Origin: an uncultured Lachnospiraceae bacterium
Lineage (GTDB): Bacteria; Bacillota; Clostridia; Lachnospirales; Lachnospiraceae
NCBI GenBank assembly: GCA_947591245.1
Contig: CANQCY010000015.1
Coordinates: 1 to 45,066, forward strand
Reading direction: 5' to 3'
DNA length: 45,066 bases
Part shown: in pieces, positions 4,747 to 17,346 of the stretch
Position numbering within the stretch: the first letter of the stretch is position 1
Layout: each line of letters opens with the position of its first letter
Program-made: the position numbers and the translations under genes
Notes under the pieces: model-generated
What the model saw: the letters and a program-made list of their open reading frames with translations, nothing else
Databases searched by the model: none
What the model was told of the DNA's origin: nothing

Positions 4747-5733
4747 TCATTGTCCCATATATTCTCGGAAAATCCGTTCCAGATCCCCGATCGTTTCTAT
4801 TTCATTTAACCGCCGCCGGATTGACGCCGAATGCGGATAACCGGAAGTATACCATGCCGTATGGGCGCGCATCTCCCGCATGCCGCAGCTTTCGCCTTTC
4901 CATGCCGCCTGCATTTCGGCATGCCGCATGATCGTCTCAAACACTTCCCGTATATCCGGTTTGGGAAGCTCCTCCCCGCATGCCAGATAATGCCTGATCT
5001 GTGTAAACAGCCATGGATTGCCTCTTGCTCCGCGTCCCACCATAACTGCATCGCAGCCGGTCTCTTCAATCATGCGCTGCGCATCCTCGCCGCATAGGAT
5101 ATCGCCATTCCCGATCACGGGTATGCTTACGGCTTCCTTCACGCGGCGTATAATATCAAGGTCAGCCGTGCCGCTGTAATACTGCGTCCTCGTCCTGCCA
5201 TGGACGGCAATCGCCGATGCGCCGGCATCTTCCACCGCCTTCGCCATCTCGACCGCCTGTTCCTCCCCCTGCCGGAAGCCCTTGCGGACCTTTACCGTCA
5301 CAGGTTTGCGAATCGCCTTCACCGTCTTTCTCACGATCTCTGCGGCCAACGGAATATTATTCAGCAGCGCCGAACCCTCTCCGTTATTTACTACCTTGGG
5401 AACGGGGCAGCCCATATTTATGTCAAGTATATCAAAATTCCTCTCTTCGATCTGCGCCGCCATGCTGCTTATAATATCCGGATCAGAGCCAAAAAACTGC
5501 AGCGCCGCCGGCCGTTCCTCCTCCCGGATCTCCATCAGCCGTTCTGTATTTTTACTGTGATAATAAATGCCTTTTGCGCTTACCATCTCCGTATAAACCA
5601 GATCAGCTCCTTTTTCCTTACACAGCTGCCGGAACGGCAGATCCGTCACGCCCGCCATCGGCGCCAAAATAAGCCGTCCCGAAATTTTGACGTCACCGAT
5701 CTGCCACGGCTTATTTCCTACCGCTTCACTCAC
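4747..5733 (-). CDS. dusB: tRNA-dihydrouridine synthase (DusB type)
   Basis: Flavin enzyme that reduces specific uridines in tRNA to dihydrouridine. The TIM-barrel FMN core opens with [29 protein letters not shown] carries the family cysteine near residue 93, followed by VKVRKGF, the AVHGRTR segment and [16 protein letters not shown] phosphate-binding motifs; all are standard for Dus. An upstream ATG at 5775 would extend into coaX. I chose GTG at 5733, which has AAGGG seven bases upstream and overlaps the coaX stop in GTGAGTGA, implying translational coupling. The 328-residue length is normal. It is the last gene of the citrate synthase-unknown-coaX-dusB run. Confidence 0.93.
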
Positions 5734-6526
5734 CTGTCTTCCCTTTCTTCTCCTCAAATGCTTTTGTCTTCTCATAAACCAGACGGGTTCCCTGAAGCGT
5801 CAGGTTCGGATCATAGATATCAATCGCATTCGTCGCATCCGAGATGCAGCGTCCGAGTCCACCTGTTGCAACGACGCGTATATTGGGGATGCCGGACTCT
5901 TTCTTAATCATCTTTACAATGTATTCCGTCTGCCCGATCGTGCCGTAAATCAGTCCTGCCTGCATGCCTGTAATCGTATTTTTCGCCAAAATCGTATCCG
6001 GCTTCTTTATCTCGATCTCCGGCAGCTGCGCCGCGCTCGACCACAGCGCGCGCGCGCTTATTTTAATTCCCGGACACGTCACCCTGGCTGCAAAAACGCC
6101 GTCGCCGGTAACGAGGTCATACGTCGTCGCCGTTCCGTAATCGACGACGATCACCGGGCCGCCATACATCTCGTAAGCGCCGACTGCGTCCACGATCCGG
6201 TCAGCTCCGATCTCGCTCGGATTGGCAGCGGCGATATGGATTCCCGATTTGGTATCGCTGCCCACGATATACGGCGTCCTTCCAAAATATTTTTTAATGC
6301 CGCTGACTAATGAATACATCACTTTTGGAACAACCGAGGCGATAATAACATCATGAATCTGATCCTCGACGATATTGTGCCTTGAAATCGCCTCGACGAT
6401 CGCCTCCCCGAATTCGTTGGAGGTTCTGGGCAGATTCGTCGTAAGGCGAAATGTAAATTGGAGCTCGGCCCCGTCAAACACGCCAAAAGTAAGATTTGTA
6501 TTTCCTATATCGATTGCCAGTAACAT
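5726..6526 (-). CDS. coaX: Type III pantothenate kinase
   Basis: Catalyses ATP-dependent phosphorylation of pantothenate, the first step of coenzyme A synthesis, in the cytoplasm. The ASKHA fold signatures are complete: LAIDIGNTN at residues 4-12 (phosphate 1 and catalytic Asp), [14 protein letters not shown] in the middle, [11 protein letters not shown] (phosphate 2) and VATGGLG (adenosine). The 266-residue length is typical of CoaX, and type III enzymes resist CoA feedback and need a monovalent cation (family knowledge). It begins 19 bases after the preceding small gene and overlaps dusB by 8 nt, so it is part of one transcript. Confidence 0.95.
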
Positions 6527-6545
6527 ATCTTTATCCTCTTATTTT

Positions 6546-6869
6546 TTAATCCTTTTCCGCAAAAAACTCCCGGTAATACTCTTCCAGCGACTCAAACAGT
6601 TCCTCCTTTTCCCGCCGGAGCTGTTTGATTTTCAAATGGCTTCCGATCTCATCAAAAAAGAAATCGTTCTCTTTCGCTGTCGTTGACAGATAAAGCGTCC
6701 CGTCCTCTTCAAATTCCATCGTAAAAACGCCGCCCACATCTTCCGTCAGCATCACGCTTAATATCCGAAGCTCATCCCGAACGGATTCCGGCAGAGAAGA
6801 ATACCTCGGATTCAAATAAAATTTCCGCTCATATGCACTGCACGCGCAAAGGATCTGTTTTTCATCCAT
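6546..6869 (-). CDS. Small conserved-looking cytoplasmic protein of unknown function
   Basis: A 107-residue acidic protein that I do not recognise as a named family. It has no signal peptide or membrane segment. The N-terminal half contains a Cys pair (ILCACSAYERKFYLNP), and the middle looks like a beta meander (GGVFTMEFEEDGTLYL). The C-terminal 30 residues are a charged amphipathic helix. It starts 5 bases after the citrate synthase stop and ends 19 bases before coaX, so it is firmly inside the operon, and its coding style matches its neighbours. AAAGGA lies about 11 bases before the start. Context suggests a housekeeping role linked to its neighbours but does not identify it. Confidence 0.8.
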   Translation of the reverse strand: MDEKQILCACSAYERKFYLNPRYSSLPESVRDELRILSVMLTEDVGGVFTMEFEEDGTLYLSTTAKENDFFFDEIGSHLKIKQLRREKEELFESLEEYYREFFAEKD

Positions 6870-6874
6870 CCCGG

Positions 6875-8248
6875 TTATTTCCTTTCACTCATCGGCACAT
6901 ATTCCTTATGCGAACACACAGCCTTATAAGCCGGGCGTATAATCTTCCCGGCATTCACAAGCTCTTCAAGACGGTGCGCGCTCCATCCGGCGATACGCCC
7001 GATTGCAAAAAGCGGCGTGTACATTTCAATCGGCAGGCCGAGCATACTGTATACAAGTCCGCTGTAAAAATCAACATTCGCGCTTACTCCCTTATATATA
7101 TGCCTCTCATTCGCTATGACTTCCGGCGCAAGGCGCTCCACCTTTTCATAGAGCGCATATTCCGCCATCATATTCTTTTCCTCTGAAAGTTTTTTTACAA
7201 ATTTGCGGAACGTCTTGGCACGCGGATCCGAAATCGAATAGACCGCATGTCCCATACCGTAAATCAGTCCTGATTTATCAAATGCCTGCTTATTCAAAAG
7301 AGCTGTGAGATAGGATCGGATTTCATCCTCATCCTCCCAGTTTTTCAAGCTTTTCTTCATATCCTCAAACATCAGGGAAACTTTTTTATTGGCCCCGCCA
7401 TGACGCGGGCCTTTCAATGAACCGAGAGACGCTGATATAGCCGCATATGTATCCGTGCCGGAAGACGTAACGACATGATCCGTAAACGTAGAGTTGTTTC
7501 CGCCGCCGTGCTCCGCATGAAGCACAAGCGCAATGTCCAAAATTTTCGCCTCCAGCGGCGTAAACTGGCTGTCAGCGCGCAGCATATGCAAAATATTTTC
7601 CGCCGTTGAATACTCCCGCTTCGGCGGATGCAGAAAGAAGCTGCTTCCCTCGTGAAAATAACCCGCCGCCTGATACCCGTATACAGCAAACATAGGCAGC
7701 AGCGCCACCAGCTCCAAACACTGGCGGAGAACATTTTCCGTCGATGTATCATCCGCCTTTTCATCATAAGAGTAAAGCGTGAGTACGCTTCTTCCAAGCG
7801 TATTCATCAGATCCGAGCTCGGCGCTTTCATGATAATGTCGCGCACAAAGCCGGTCGGCAGGCTTTTTCGATATTCCGCAAGAATGTCCTTCAAATCCTC
7901 CAGCTGGCTCTCCGTCGGCAGTTCGCCAAATAAAAGCAAATACACAACCTCTTCATAACCAAATCGTTTCTCCTGCAAAAAACCATCCACGATATCCTCG
8001 ATATCAATTCCCTGATAATAAAGCTTGCCCTCGCACGGAACCATATCGTGGTCAATCACCATATAAGAACGTATCTCAGAAACCTCCGTCAATCCGGTCA
8101 GGACGCCCTGCCCGTTCAAATCCCTGAGTCCCCGTTTCACTTTATATTTATCAAATAAAGTAGAGTCAATCGTACTGCTCGCCTCACACACGTTAGCCAT
8201 CTGCCGTATCCAGTCGCGTCGATATTCCAAATTCAAATTTCCGTTCAT
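6875..8248 (-). CDS. gltA: Citrate synthase
   Basis: Condenses acetyl-CoA and oxaloacetate to citrate, probably feeding 2-oxoglutarate and glutamate synthesis in a fermentative anaerobe (inference). The three catalytic residues are visible: His283 in GPRHGGAN, His334 in GMGHAVYSISDPRAKTF and Asp393 in NVDFYSGLVY. The glycine-rich HAEHGGGNNSTF (244-255) is a citrate synthase landmark. At 457 residues, with an N-terminal extension of about 50 residues before the core, it resembles the longer enzymes of clostridia. AAAGGAGG precedes the ATG. It leads a tight run with the small unknown, coaX and dusB. A 2-methylcitrate synthase cannot be excluded from sequence alone, but no prp genes are near. 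Confidence 0.92.
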   Translation of the reverse strand: MNGNLNLEYRRDWIRQMANVCEASSTIDSTLFDKYKVKRGLRDLNGQGVLTGLTEVSEIRSYMVIDHDMVPCEGKLYYQGIDIEDIVDGFLQEKRFGYEEVVYLLLFGELPTESQLEDLKDILAEYRKSLPTGFVRDIIMKAPSSDLMNTLGRSVLTLYSYDEKADDTSTENVLRQCLELVALLPMFAVYGYQAAGYFHEGSSFFLHPPKREYSTAENILHMLRADSQFTPLEAKILDIALVLHAEHGGGNNSTFTDHVVTSSGTDTYAAISASLGSLKGPRHGGANKKVSLMFEDMKKSLKNWEDEDEIRSYLTALLNKQAFDKSGLIYGMGHAVYSISDPRAKTFRKFVKKLSEEKNMMAEYALYEKVERLAPEVIANERHIYKGVSANVDFYSGLVYSMLGLPIEMYTPLFAIGRIAGWSAHRLEELVNAGKIIRPAYKAVCSHKEYVPMSERK

Positions 8249-10849: not shown

Positions 10850-11629
10850 TTATCGTTTCCGCCGGATCTCATACATCAAAAGAGCCGCGGACACAGCCGC
10901 ATTCAGCGACTCCATCTCTCCCTCCATGGGAATCGCAATCGTTTCATCCGCCTGCGCGAACGTCTCCGGACGCAGTCCGTTTGCCTCATTTCCAATCAAA
11001 ATCCCTGTCTTCCCCTGAAATGAACAGGCGGTATAGTCCCTCTCTGCCCCCGGTCCGGCTGCGTACACCGTAAAACCGTCCCGCTGAAGCCTCCCGACCT
11101 CATCCGCCATATCAGAAACCGCATAGAAAGGCATACGAAATAATGCGCCCATCGTGGCGCGCACTACCTTGGGATGAAACAGATCCACGCATTGTCCGGA
11201 TAAAACAACCGCCGTCATGCCCGCACCCACAGCGGTTCGGAAAATCGTCCCCATATTTCCCGGATCGCGGATATCTTCAAGGCATATAAAAGCTGCGTCG
11301 GGCGCCTCCGTCAGCTCGTCCCTTCGGTATCGCGGCGCCTCTACGAGAGCCAAAACCCCCTGAGGCGTGGCAGTATCCGACATTTCCCGGAAAACCCGCT
11401 CCGACACCCATTCGACGCCTGTATCTTTTATTTTATGCAGAAGCCTCTTCTCATATTCATCCCGTGCGGCTTCTGAAACATATACCCTCCTTACCTCCCC
11501 ATACCGCAGCGCCTCCTCCACCATCGTAAATCCCTCTGCCGCAAAGCATTGTTCCTGTTTTCGGTATCTGGCGCTTTTATTTAATTTGCACACTTTTTTC
11601 ACCTGCGCATTTGCCCTGCTCTCGATCAA
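10850..11629 (-). CDS. SpoU/TrmH-family RNA 2'-O-methyltransferase
   Basis: SAM-dependent ribose methyltransferase of the knotted SPOUT fold, acting on rRNA or tRNA. An N-terminal substrate-binding domain (FAAEGFTMVEEALRYGEV) precedes the three SpoU motifs: RDPGNMGTIFRTA with the catalytic Arg, GILIGNEANGLRPE, and IPMEGEMESLNAAVSAALLM. The start is TTG at 11629, with GGAGGTG eight bases upstream, and TTGA overlaps the stop of the GTPase-NYN gene; such overlap normally couples translation. In Bacillus subtilis the SpoU gene rlmB lies beside the NYN nuclease gene rae1/yacP (established). The same pairing recurs here, although this protein is not clearly RlmB and the target nucleotide is unknown. 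Confidence 0.9.
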   Translation of the reverse strand: MIESRANAQVKKVCKLNKSARYRKQEQCFAAEGFTMVEEALRYGEVRRVYVSEAARDEYEKRLLHKIKDTGVEWVSERVFREMSDTATPQGVLALVEAPRYRRDELTEAPDAAFICLEDIRDPGNMGTIFRTAVGAGMTAVVLSGQCVDLFHPKVVRATMGALFRMPFYAVSDMADEVGRLQRDGFTVYAAGPGAERDYTACSFQGKTGILIGNEANGLRPETFAQADETIAIPMEGEMESLNAAVSAALLMYEIRRKR

Positions 11630-14241
11630 TGCCCTTCACCTCCGTTTAGCAGCTGTTCCCGTATTTTTTCATTAACCAGATCAACGTCCTCCCGAAACGC
11701 CTCCGCTGATATTCTGACAGCTCCGTAACCGAGTATGATCATCTGCTCCATACCGTCCGAAGTGGCAACTCTCACCCGGTTCTTTCCGACAATGCGTTTC
11801 GTCGCCTTTTCAATATACATATCCGCCGTCTCCGCCTCTTTCGTATACACAACGCTGATATTGTGGTATGTCTCAACGCTGCCCGGATTTCCTTTGACTT
11901 TATAGGCGTCAAATACAAGAATGAGCGTGCAGCCCGTATACCCCTGATAATTGCACAAAATATCCATAAGGCGCATCCGCGCCGCATCAAGACTCGTCTC
12001 AGAAACCGCCCGCAGATCGTCCCATGCAAAAATAATATTGTAACCGTCCACAAGAAGATAATCCCCGGCTGGCTTTCTCTTCCGTATCTCCACATGCTCC
12101 CTCTCATCATCCGCCCGTATGATATGCCGCTCCGGCGGCACAGCGCGCCGCTTCGCCGCCCCGAACGTCCGCTCGAAAATCGCCTGCAGCTCCCTGTCTT
12201 CCGCCTCGTAATCCCTGTCGGCATCAAATGCAGGGCGTTCCTCCGCCGATACCGTGGCGTCCCGAACGCCCCCGGCGCTTTTCTTCTTTTTTTCAAACCG
12301 TTCTGCCACGCTCTCCACATGCATGCGATCCATGACTTCATTCCATTTGACCGCCACCCCCGCCCCATGGGAACAAAAAACCGAGTCGGCAGTATTTTCC
12401 GCATCGCTTTCGCACTCGTATCCGATTTCAGCAATGACTTCCTCCGCATTATGGCACGGCTGATACCCTCCGAACGTACAAGAAATATGCCCTCTTCCCT
12501 TCGTATAGGAGGCAAACTCCACCGGATAGCCTTTCATGCGCGACACCGGACAACGTCCCGTCAGGACGGGCCAGCCGGCCTTCCCCTGCTGCGTCTCAAA
12601 TTCACCGCACATTTTTTTTATATCCGCCATCGCACGCCCAATGCAATCAGGCGGGAGTTCCATTCTAAAGTTGTAGAATGGTTCCAGCAAAATACTCTCC
12701 GCCCGCATCAGCCCATGCCGTACGGCACGGTAAGTCGCCTGACGGAAATCGCCGCCCTCCGTATGCTTTTTATGCGCCCTGCCCGCCGCAACCGTTATTT
12801 TCATATCCGTAATCGGCGACCCGGTCAGCACGCCGGCAAACTCCTTCTCCGCCAAATGCGTCAAAATAAGGCGCTGCCAGTTTAAATCCAGCTTGTCCTC
12901 ACTGCAGTCCGCCTCCAGCACAAGACCGCTCCCCGCCGGGAGAGGCTCCATCCAAAGATGCACCTCTGCATAATGCCGGAGCGGCTCAAAATGCCCGACG
13001 CCCTCTACGCCGCCGGCGATCGTCTCCCTGTAGCATATTTTTCCCGGCCCAAACGCGACCTCCGCTCCAAACCGCTCGCGTATCACATCGCCCAGCACTT
13101 CCAGCTGCACCTCTCCCATCGGCTGCACGGAAACCTCTTGCGTCTTCTCATTCCAGACAATGTGCAGCTGCGGATCCTCTTCCTCCAGCTGCCGCATGTT
13201 TTTCACCGCCGCAATCATGTCGGTTCCCTCCGGGAAAATAATGCTGTAGTTTAACACCGGTTCAAGCTGCGCGCCTGCAAAATCCGGGCAAACGCCCAAG
13301 CCGGCGCCGGCGCGGACGCTGGCCAGACCCGTCACTGCACAGACCTCGCCGGCATGGACAACCTCCCTTGTCTCATACCTGTCTCCCGAATAAATGCGAA
13401 TCTGATTTATTTTTTCATCCGTAGGCATTCCGGCTTTTTCTACCGCTGTCCTGACCCGGAGTTCCCCTCCCGTGATTTTCATATGCGTAAGCCGCGTTCC
13501 TTGGGCGTCCCTCGTAATCTTATAAACTTTGGCGCCAAAGGCGCCACTATATTCTACTTTTGTAGTCAATAGGTCGAGCCCGTCCAAAAGAGCCTCCACG
13601 CCTTCCAGCTTCAAGGCTGACCCAAAAAAACATGGAAATATTTTTCGTTGCGCAACCAACGGCGCAAGATCACTCTGCGCCGCAATAATGCCGGTTTCAA
13701 TATATTTCTCCAACAGAGCCTCGTCACACACCGCCGCATCTTCAAAAAACTGCTGCGACTGCATGTCCGATGCATCGACGCAGCTGGCGGACAAACGATC
13801 CTGAAGCTCTTCCATCAAAGCATGGCGGTCTGTTCCCGGCAGATCCATTTTGTTTACAAATACAATAGCTGGAATGCGATATTTTTCCAAAAGCCGCCAA
13901 AGCGTCTCCGTATGTCCCTGGACGCCATCCGTACCGCTGATGACCAAAACCGCATAATCCATCACCTGCAGGGTGCGTTCCATCTCCGCCGCAAAATCCG
14001 CATGCCCCGGCGTATCCAGCAGAGTGATCGCCAAATTCTTCCACTGAAGCTCCGCCTGCTTAGAAAATATCGTGATTCCCCGCTCCCGCTCATATGGATG
14101 CGTATCCAAAAATGCATTTCCGTGATCGACCCGTCCAATCTCCTTGATCTCTCCGCAGCAATACAGCAGTCCCTCGGAAAGAGTCGTCTTCCCGGCGTCC
14201 ACATGGGCAAGAATGCCAAGGGTAATCCGCTTCTCTGTCAT
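11626..14241 (-). CDS. Tet(M)/EF-G-like translational GTPase fused to a C-terminal NYN (YacP/Rae1-type) nuclease domain
   Basis: An 871-residue ribosome-acting GTPase. G motifs are intact: AHVDAGKTTLSE (12-23), DTPGH (76-80) and NKMD (130-133). EF-G-like domains II-V follow to about residue 600. Where Tet(M) uses its tetracycline-displacing domain IV loop (YSPVS), this protein has GRAHKKHTEGGDFR (487-500), so drug resistance should not be assumed. A charged linker (about 640-722) leads to a NYN domain from 724, with four acidic residues at the expected places: Asp732 (LLVDGYN), Asp778 (VFDAYK), Asp807 (TADMYIEK) and Asp829 (TSDGMEQ). Rae1/YacP cuts mRNA in the ribosomal A site (established), so the fusion suggests a factor that both opens and cleaves at the A site (inference). 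The ATG has GGGAGG nearby. Confidence 0.9.
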   Translation of the reverse strand: MTEKRITLGILAHVDAGKTTLSEGLLYCCGEIKEIGRVDHGNAFLDTHPYERERGITIFSKQAELQWKNLAITLLDTPGHADFAAEMERTLQVMDYAVLVISGTDGVQGHTETLWRLLEKYRIPAIVFVNKMDLPGTDRHALMEELQDRLSASCVDASDMQSQQFFEDAAVCDEALLEKYIETGIIAAQSDLAPLVAQRKIFPCFFGSALKLEGVEALLDGLDLLTTKVEYSGAFGAKVYKITRDAQGTRLTHMKITGGELRVRTAVEKAGMPTDEKINQIRIYSGDRYETREVVHAGEVCAVTGLASVRAGAGLGVCPDFAGAQLEPVLNYSIIFPEGTDMIAAVKNMRQLEEEDPQLHIVWNEKTQEVSVQPMGEVQLEVLGDVIRERFGAEVAFGPGKICYRETIAGGVEGVGHFEPLRHYAEVHLWMEPLPAGSGLVLEADCSEDKLDLNWQRLILTHLAEKEFAGVLTGSPITDMKITVAAGRAHKKHTEGGDFRQATYRAVRHGLMRAESILLEPFYNFRMELPPDCIGRAMADIKKMCGEFETQQGKAGWPVLTGRCPVSRMKGYPVEFASYTKGRGHISCTFGGYQPCHNAEEVIAEIGYECESDAENTADSVFCSHGAGVAVKWNEVMDRMHVESVAERFEKKKKSAGGVRDATVSAEERPAFDADRDYEAEDRELQAIFERTFGAAKRRAVPPERHIIRADDEREHVEIRKRKPAGDYLLVDGYNIIFAWDDLRAVSETSLDAARMRLMDILCNYQGYTGCTLILVFDAYKVKGNPGSVETYHNISVVYTKEAETADMYIEKATKRIVGKNRVRVATSDGMEQMIILGYGAVRISAEAFREDVDLVNEKIREQLLNGGEGH

Positions 14242-14248
14242 ATGTTAC

Positions 14249-14279
14249 CTCCCTTTTCATAAGGGAGCCTTCGTCTCCC
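14249..14279 (-). promoter_or_regulatory. Possible translational switch: alternative hairpins over the GTPase-NYN ribosome site
   Basis: On the minus strand CTCCCTT (14261-14267) can pair with AAGGGAG (14249-14255), a perfect 7-bp stem with a 5-nt loop that buries the Shine-Dalgarno. The same CTCCC can instead pair with the upstream GGGAG (14275-14279; 7-nt loop). The two stems exclude each other, as in a sequestor/anti-sequestor leader. No ligand domain or clear leader peptide was recognised. Confidence 0.45.
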
Positions 14280-15768: not shown

Positions 15769-17346
15769 TTAGGACAGCGTTTTTCCTTTCACAGAAGAAT
15801 ACGTACCCCAGATCTTCTTTCCATTAACCGTCGTATATGCACGAACCTTGTAATAGTATTTCACGTTCCTTGACGTAGTTTTTGTGTAGGTCACCTTAGA
15901 ACCGGACGTAACCGTCTTGATTTTTGAAAAGCCGCCGGAACGGGAAGTGGAACGGTAAATGCGGTATCCGCTGGCGCCAGTTACCTTACTCCATGACACC
16001 GTTACTTTTGTCTTGGATGCTTTTGCAATTGACAGGCTTTTCGGAGCCGCCGGAATCGGTTTTCCCGAAACTGCGCTTGAATATCCCCCATAGTAATAGA
16101 TGCCGTCGATCAGGCGGTATGCGCGCACCTTATAATAGTATGTCGTACCGCATGAAATCCCGGAGTTGGTATACGACACTTTCGAGCTTGAGGTAATGGA
16201 TTTAATCTTCTTAAATCCGCTGGTTTTGGAAGTAGAACGATAAATGCGGTATCCCGTCGCTCCATCCACGCCGCTCCATGTGATCTTGATCTTATTGTAT
16301 GCGGTGCTCGACGTCTGAACTGTAGCCACCGCGCCGAGAGTTACAGATTTCTCCGCAAATTCCGTTTTATCCGCATTGACTGTCACGGTAACGGTCTGCT
16401 TCGTACCCGGAATCACATACGCGTATGTGAAAGAAGATGGCACGCTCGTCAGCTTATCCCACACAATAGCGTTTACCGTATCTTTATATACGCCGTTGTT
16501 CGATATATTTTCCGGTTTCACCGCCCCTGTCGGAAGGACGACCCCGCAAAATGAATCCGTACCGACATTAACGGTCTGAACCTTAAGAGTCAGGCGGCTC
16601 TTCCGGTTTTCCAGCACTTTCAGATTTTTAAGCGCAGAAGTATTTATATTTACGATGCCGTTTCCACCGCAATACAGCGTCTCGAGCGCCGTCATGTTCT
16701 CTACGTTAATCGCAGACAGCGCATTGCTGCTGCAATCCAGTTCTTTCAAATTGAACAGGCCCGCCGTATTTAAAACAGCAATCTCATTGTCGCTGCAATT
16801 CAGCTCCAGCAGCTTTGTAAACCCGGCCAGTTCAAGCGCCGTAAGGGCGTTATTGCTGCAGTCAAGCGACTCCAGTTCATATGACTGGCCAAATTTAATT
16901 TCAGTCAGGTTATTGTAAGCGGCATTCAGTTTTTTCAGCTGCTTAAGTCCCGACAAATCTAATGATTTGATATTATTATGGGAAGCATCCAGCTCTGTAA
17001 TGCCGGTGAAAAATTCGATGCCTTTGAGATCTTCGATCTCCAGTCCCGCGATTTTCAGACTTCCCGCGTATGCGCCAAGCGTCTCTTTTACCGACTCTGT
17101 AAACGCATCCCCGTCTTTCAGTTCCCCTGAGAAAAACTCGTTGTTGACAAATTTACGGAAATTCTCATCGGGAAACGCCGATTTAATATCTGCAGCCGGC
17201 GATTCAGCCGGCGCCGTTTCTGCCGCCGCAGCCGTCGGCGACGGATCTGCCGGCGCATCTGCCGCCTGCGTTCCCTTTATTGCCAAAAACGGGATGGCAA
17301 GAACCGCACATGCTCCCAAACATATTTTTTTTGCTAATTTCGTCAT
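15769..17346 (-). CDS. Secreted leucine-rich-repeat protein with two Fn3 domains
   Basis: An extracellular 525-residue protein of likely binding or adhesion function. The signal peptide (residues 1-28, cut near TQAADA) is followed by an Ala/Pro linker. A capping segment (INSERT-like FPDENFRKFV motif, about 58-67) common in clostridial surface LRR proteins comes next. About six LRRs follow (115-250) with the pattern L-x-x-L-x-C/A-x-x-N (for example LESLDCSNNALTALEL). A beta domain (260-340) and two Fn3 domains (about 345-440 and 440-525) share near-identical GYRIYRSTSxxxGFxKIK and YYYKVRAY elements. No LPXTG or membrane anchor is visible, so attachment is unclear. GAAAGGAAGATAGAAT precedes the ATG. 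It is monocistronic, ending at a strong terminator. Confidence 0.88.
   Translation of the reverse strand: MTKLAKKICLGACAVLAIPFLAIKGTQAADAPADPSPTAAAAETAPAESPAADIKSAFPDENFRKFVNNEFFSGELKDGDAFTESVKETLGAYAGSLKIAGLEIEDLKGIEFFTGITELDASHNNIKSLDLSGLKQLKKLNAAYNNLTEIKFGQSYELESLDCSNNALTALELAGFTKLLELNCSDNEIAVLNTAGLFNLKELDCSSNALSAINVENMTALETLYCGGNGIVNINTSALKNLKVLENRKSRLTLKVQTVNVGTDSFCGVVLPTGAVKPENISNNGVYKDTVNAIVWDKLTSVPSSFTYAYVIPGTKQTVTVTVNADKTEFAEKSVTLGAVATVQTSSTAYNKIKITWSGVDGATGYRIYRSTSKTSGFKKIKSITSSSKVSYTNSGISCGTTYYYKVRAYRLIDGIYYYGGYSSAVSGKPIPAAPKSLSIAKASKTKVTVSWSKVTGASGYRIYRSTSRSGGFSKIKTVTSGSKVTYTKTTSRNVKYYYKVRAYTTVNGKKIWGTYSSVKGKTLS

Follow-up and report, generated by a model that had tools for sequence, protein, structure and literature searches.

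A 45,066-nucleotide stretch (the window; positions 1–45,066 of contig CANQCY010000015.1, assembly GCA_947591245.1) from an uncultured Lachnospiraceae bacterium encodes on its reverse strand an 871-residue protein in which a GTPase resembling EF-G and Tet(M) is joined to a NYN domain of the Rae1/YacP kind. We predict, with moderate confidence, that this clostridial protein is a single-chain endonuclease that cuts mRNA in dependence on the ribosome and has replaced Rae1 in its role, and a ribosome-dependent mRNA nuclease delivered by its own GTPase is the simplest account of the data. Rae1 is described as an mRNA-destabilising nuclease whose action depends on translation, and has been placed in the ribosomal A site; in B. 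subtilis, according to the accessible text of PMC6613710, yacO and rae1 are co-transcribed and act on one pathway. That the fused domain performs the work of Rae1 is best supported by genome sequence, namely by the missing NYN gene after rlmB.

The architecture is already in print. The available text of Atkinson 2015 (PMC4342817) reports a fusion of a Tet protein with a YacP-like NYN domain in ten Clostridiales, assigns it to the Tet subfamily and guesses at ribonuclease-based antibiotic resistance, with no experiments given there. Those fusions share architecture and taxonomic group with the window protein; new here are the class-wide spread, a clade separate from Tet(M/O/S/Q) with its own loop, the origin by extension, the linker motif and the tie to an absent NYN gene in the Rae1 slot after rlmB. 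Among the titles and abstracts listed in searches of the open-licence literature there was no further paper on the fusion and no functional study. An earlier reading of the DNA made from its letters alone (the sequence-only reading) knew of no such study; the fusion itself had been published.

The rlmB–sigH slot and the spread of the fusion

With the RlmB of the window's genome as the only query, 15 of the 20 stand-alone NYN loci have RlmB encoded directly upstream (L120, among the five exceptions, is a contig-end fragment without upstream sequence), and the order rlmB–NYN–sigH is found in seven of the nine stand-alone loci with longer flanks. A NYN gene lay beside rlmB in none of the 31 fusion genomes examined (the window genome and 30 others). 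SigH follows rlmB in 13 of the 31, after a gap of 14–340 bases in 12 and of 788 bases in one. The remaining 18 have no match to SigH within the 0.3–1.5 kb of sequence covered downstream of rlmB. In the window genome, rlmB (TIGR00186, 241 bits) and a SigH-type sigma factor 32 bases after it (NF006148, 228 bits) both score over their cut-offs. Since the NYN gene is missing from this slot, the fused domain appears to have taken Rae1's place in these genomes, and the emptied slot offers an evolutionary handle on what Rae1 gained on a GTPase.

The fusion gene is common in Clostridia and has the look of a housekeeping gene, not of one for antibiotic resistance. The survey of its distribution that the sequence-only reading had proposed found a fusion-length frame in at least 124 of 393 genomes of the class, an unfused-length GTPase in at least 20 and a partial one in at least five; NYN_YacP matches in 250 of the 393, and the GTPase family in 164 (E < 1e-50, a threshold that we set). 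Open frames of at least 780 residues were counted as fused and those of 600–730 residues as unfused; 150 GTPase rows were classed, 15 of the 164 GTPase-positive genomes lie outside them, and the GTPase, fused and unfused genome counts were transcribed by hand from the result tables. Among the matches listed, exactly one NYN match occurs in 119 of the 124 fusion-length genomes. The 20 listed unfused genomes have a NYN match elsewhere in 14 cases and none in six (G085, G088, G113, G127, G236, G344). A Fisher test of co-occurrence is trivial here, because the fusion itself joins both domains in one genome.

Within the genus, 36 of 37 genomes, the window's own included, have a NYN match, one in each; 30 of these lie in an open frame of at least 842 residues and the other six in shorter frames, and the matched stretch is printed with internal stops in eight of the 36 rows, perhaps because the profile overruns the gene end. 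In a sample of the phylum the family is present in 26 of 299 genomes (E up to 1e-50). In 72,556 plasmid records, a match extending over 80% of the protein occurs in two, one of them from Monoglobus and annotated 'translation factor GTPase family protein'. The 62 loci compared include homologues in Roseburia, Agathobaculum, Ruminococcus, Faecalibacterium, Oscillospiraceae and others, with Roseburia and Eubacterium records nearest to the window protein (65–66% identity).

Architecture and ancestry of the fused protein

The gene and its parts are as follows.

11626..14241, reverse strand: whole gene, 871 residues, Tet/EF-G-like GTPase plus Rae1-type NYN domain (open reading frame list, Pfam, structure alignment)
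14248..14253, reverse strand: GGGAGG, likely ribosome-binding site (sequence)
13570..14232, reverse strand: G domain, residues 4–224, with AHVDAGKTT, DTPGH and NKMD (Pfam GTP_EFTU, 2.8e-54)
13300..13533, reverse strand: domain II, residues 237–314 (Pfam EF-G_D2, below its cut-off)
13048..13263, reverse strand: domain III, residues 327–398 (Pfam EFG_III)
12700..13044, reverse strand: domain IV, residues 400–514 (Pfam EFG_IV)
12742..12783, reverse strand: domain-IV loop GRAHKKHTEGGDFR, residues 487–500 (alignment with Tet(M) 504–517)
12448..12690, reverse strand: domain V, residues 518–598 (Pfam EFG_C)
12313..12474, reverse strand: C-terminal extension, residues 590–643, family-specific (alignment)
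12064..12312, reverse strand: linker, residues 644–726, mostly of low confidence in the structure model
12160..12198, reverse strand: conserved linker motif, residues 682–694, consensus DKELxxIFERTYG (82-protein alignment)
11650..12057, reverse strand: NYN (Rae1/YacP) domain, residues 729–864 (Pfam NYN_YacP, structure alignment)
12046..12048, reverse strand: Asp732 codon (alignment of homologues)
11908..11910, reverse strand: Asp778 codon (alignment of homologues)
11821..11823, reverse strand: Asp807 codon (alignment of homologues)
11755..11757, reverse strand: Asp829 codon (alignment of homologues)

The frame opens with ATG, and GGGAGG lies 6 bases upstream. The profile search suggested by the sequence-only reading matched both EF-G-type domains and NYN_YacP. 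Judged by its sequence, the first half is an EF2-family translational GTPase with intact GTP motifs, as had been claimed: GTP_EFTU, EFG_III, EFG_IV and EFG_C all score above their Pfam cut-offs, and the P-loop, NKxD and DTPGH motifs (the last with H80 as its histidine) show no variation in their core residues across the 56-row model alignment (56 of 57 diverse sequences, L027 being omitted). The search alignment has 30 rows, with L050 omitted from the printed set. The match to an EF-G-like fold (VIA-align) covers residues 1–609 only and barely touches the NYN part.

The assignment of the second half to the Rae1/YacP kind was borne out, as were the four aspartates that the sequence-only reading had pointed out at active-site spacing. 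NYN_YacP matches with 162 bits against a cut-off of 24.6 (E 1.7e-47, profile positions 1–138 of 166), and 137 residues align with the B. subtilis YacP structures 5mq8/5mq9 (E 1.4e-26), whose aspartates coincide with Asp732, Asp778, Asp807 and Asp829. All four are kept in 86 of 86 full-length proteins, that is, the window protein with 81 of 85 full-length homologues, to which the remaining four were aligned afterwards. Unlike Rae1, the window NYN domain sits on a GTPase after a linker motif and is not encoded beside rlmB; the C-terminal tail of stand-alone Rae1 is not in the window protein and is retained by some fusions. Many of the fused proteins among loci L021–L040 have such a tail (RNYL.DAL..E).

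We conclude from its sequence that the GTPase family lies beside Tet(M/O/S/Q) and not within it. A tree built from 37 rows (13 fused, 16 unfused, 4 Tet and 4 EF-G) unites the Tet(M/O/S/Q) proteins (100/100) and, in a separate clade, the present family (100/99); the program warns that the branches of EF-G and Tet, both long, come together. Within the present family, 15 unfused proteins group together (96/84) and the 13 fused proteins in another clade (98/94). A quick tree of 72 rows (49 of them fused and 18 unfused) agrees. In both GTPase trees the plasmid protein L151, which has no NYN domain, is nested with a long branch among the fused proteins; a fused-only clade is not rejected by the approximately unbiased test (p-AU 0.75). 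The window protein shares its domain order and 29–31% identity with Tet(M), Tet(O), Tet(S) and Tet(Q), and its best NCBIfam model is tet_protect, but at 418 bits it stays below the cut-off of 775 (the best EF-G model gives 330), and it has a different tip loop, a C-terminal extension and the additional NYN domain. With EF-G it shares fold and GTP motifs; identity is about 28%, the tip sequence differs and the window protein lies outside the EF-G clade.

The claim that the drug-displacing loop of Tet(M) is replaced proved correct. The family has GRAHxKHTEGGDFR where Tet(M) has YSPVSTP (residues 507–513), with HKKHTEG in the same columns of the window protein; fused and unfused rows share GRAHxKHT as their 70% consensus. 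In Tet(M), domain IV is placed in the A site, and Pro509 and Val510 are at its tip, which meets the tetracyclines, according to the available text of PMC7456112; PMC8161019 likewise describes Pro509 at the tip. Neither residue is kept in the window protein, which has K492 and H493 there, KH being the 70% consensus of both fused and unfused forms.

The gene for L151 (positions 4998–6917 of an L. salivarius plasmid) adjoins an ISL3-family transposase gene, and the protein has an altered loop, ASNVHTVGGDFR. It is annotated as TetM/TetW/TetO/TetS-family resistance despite a tet_protect score of 384 bits against the cut-off of 775. A tetracycline-resistance label on an unfused relative could inflate resistance counts.

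The C-terminal extension is common to the unfused homologues and does not occur in the Tet or EF-G rows. Since the unfused relatives stop right after it, at about window residue 641–647, where the linker starts, the GTPase seems to have been extended at its natural C-terminus, and the NYN domain was probably joined to it by such an extension once. This single origin is read from the GTPase trees and not from the NYN tree, which splits the fused domains into two groups placed amid stand-alone domains from the same order (L120, the contig-end fragment, being labelled stand-alone there); as fused domains are united in 0 of 200 bootstrap trees, the NYN tree shows no single fusion. The linker varies from 65 to 132 residues (median 75; 82 proteins) and has one conserved stretch, DKELxxIFERTYG, with E684 kept in 81 of the 82 and T692 in 78, the rest being variable. 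We suggest that this stretch probably serves for docking of the NYN domain, either on the ribosome or in a resting position.

Proposed mechanism and its alternatives

In the mechanism that we propose, the GTPase would bind at the factor site when a ribosome is stalled or slow and its A site is empty, and the basic domain-IV loop would probe the decoding centre. Once GTP is hydrolysed, domain IV would withdraw; the tethered NYN domain would then enter and cut the A-site codon, as proposed for Rae1, and the cut mRNA would be passed to trans-translation and exonucleases. The hand-over is taken to be sequential because domain IV and the NYN domain would compete for one site: Tet(M) domain IV and Rae1 have each been placed in the A site, and a single ribosome would hardly have room for the two together. 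The sequence-only reading's picture of a factor that clears the A site and then cuts would thus need such a hand-over through the 65–132-residue linker, or else a cut elsewhere. Its term 'quality-control factor' is narrower than the evidence, since what is described for Rae1 is translation-dependent destabilisation of mRNA. Overall, the function that it proposed is plausible, and part of it has been strengthened here.

Several observations weigh against a one-chain endonuclease that replaced Rae1. The competition of domain IV and Rae1 for one site makes the hand-over our conjecture, and the structure model (predicted template modelling score, pTM, 0.65; two linker stretches below 50 in pLDDT, the predicted local distance difference test) gives no reliable placement of the NYN domain. 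As the window protein has no Rae1-type C-terminal tail, its ribosome contacts may differ from those of Rae1. The GTPase must have some function without a NYN domain, given the six NYN-free genomes among the 20 with unfused forms, and a second or further NYN match occurs in five of the 124 listed fusion-length genomes (G179, G232, G266, G341, G426). Only 13 genomes show the emptied slot directly, because SigH was not seen in the flank covered in the other 18, and the NYN tree, with no single fused group, tells against a simple story.

A bolder version, which we offer only tentatively, is a GTP-driven ribosome-rescue nuclease of Clostridia and their relatives whose basic tip loop detects the vacant A site of a stalled ribosome, whose GTP hydrolysis hands that site to the Rae1 domain for cutting of the mRNA, and which displaced stand-alone Rae1 in much of Clostridia. 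If true, it would be the bacterial equivalent, on one chain, of eukaryotic rescue by a GTPase coupled to decay, in which the rescue GTPases Ski7 and Hbs1 are tied to RNA decay. The comparison is one of analogy: a translational GTPase is linked to mRNA destruction in both, but Ski7 and Hbs1 are EF1-type GTPases with other partners and are not known to carry such a NYN domain on the chain. Our main reading, if right, would show how GTP directs a bacterial nuclease to the A site, and in a major group of gut bacteria it would connect ribosome stalling with mRNA decay in a way that can be tested.

The GTPase could instead be no more than a tether, which concentrates the NYN domain on ribosomes while keeping an older job (unjamming or drug clearance, for example), the NYN domain cutting a few mRNAs for regulation, in the usual manner of Rae1. 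The long and largely unconserved linker would suit this, as would the translation dependence ascribed to Rae1 and the existence of unfused GTPases with the same loop, 14 of the 20 listed genomes having a separate NYN match and six having none. We nevertheless think it unlikely, as one fused clade spread over many families, with both halves and the linker motif conserved, suggests coupled action. Less likely again is a factor for rRNA or tRNA maturation or for ribosome assembly, in which the GTPase would check the new subunit and the NYN domain trim RNA. This was the older prediction for YacP-like NYN domains, as quoted in the available text of Atkinson 2015 (PMC4342817), and both the tendency of stand-alone NYN genes to follow RlmB and the overlap of the window gene with an rRNA-methyltransferase-like gene fit it; that methyltransferase, however, is adjacent in just four of 84 fusion loci (and at L062, a contig end), and later work puts Rae1 on translating ribosomes. 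Resistance to tetracycline or another A-site drug with a ribonuclease added, the suggestion of Atkinson 2015, draws on tet_protect being the best model and on one unfused relative annotated in the TetM/TetW/TetO/TetS family, but we regard it as highly improbable: simple tetracycline resistance, the outcome that the sequence-only reading had named against itself, has against it the sub-threshold score, the separate clades (100/99 and 100/100) and the lost Pro509/Val510 tip, and the gene's occurrence in all but one of the 37 genomes of its genus, its near absence from plasmid records and its lack of neighbour families recurring beyond near relatives point the same way.

Gene neighbourhood

One neighbouring gene overlaps the fusion gene.

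10850..11629, reverse strand: SpoU-type 2'-O-methyltransferase, downstream of the fusion gene, overlap TTGA

This methyltransferase has an MRM3-like substrate-binding domain, and we take it to be possibly an A-loop enzyme of the RlmP type, RlmP being responsible for A-loop methylation. It was considered as a conserved operon partner and ruled out, the adjacency being limited to L025, L061, L063 and L064 among the 84 loci with enough flank; at L062 the contig ends inside the methyltransferase gene. As it adjoins the fusion only in near relatives, it probably lies outside the system. No neighbour family of the fusion loci recurs beyond near relatives; the most widespread occurs at 17 loci, mostly in Agathobaculum. 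The unfused GTPase is not adjacent to rae1 in the four genomes compared by eye (G046, G165, G221, G316). Elsewhere in the window, positions 15769–17346 encode a leucine-rich-repeat protein that also has weak matches of the fibronectin-III-like kind.

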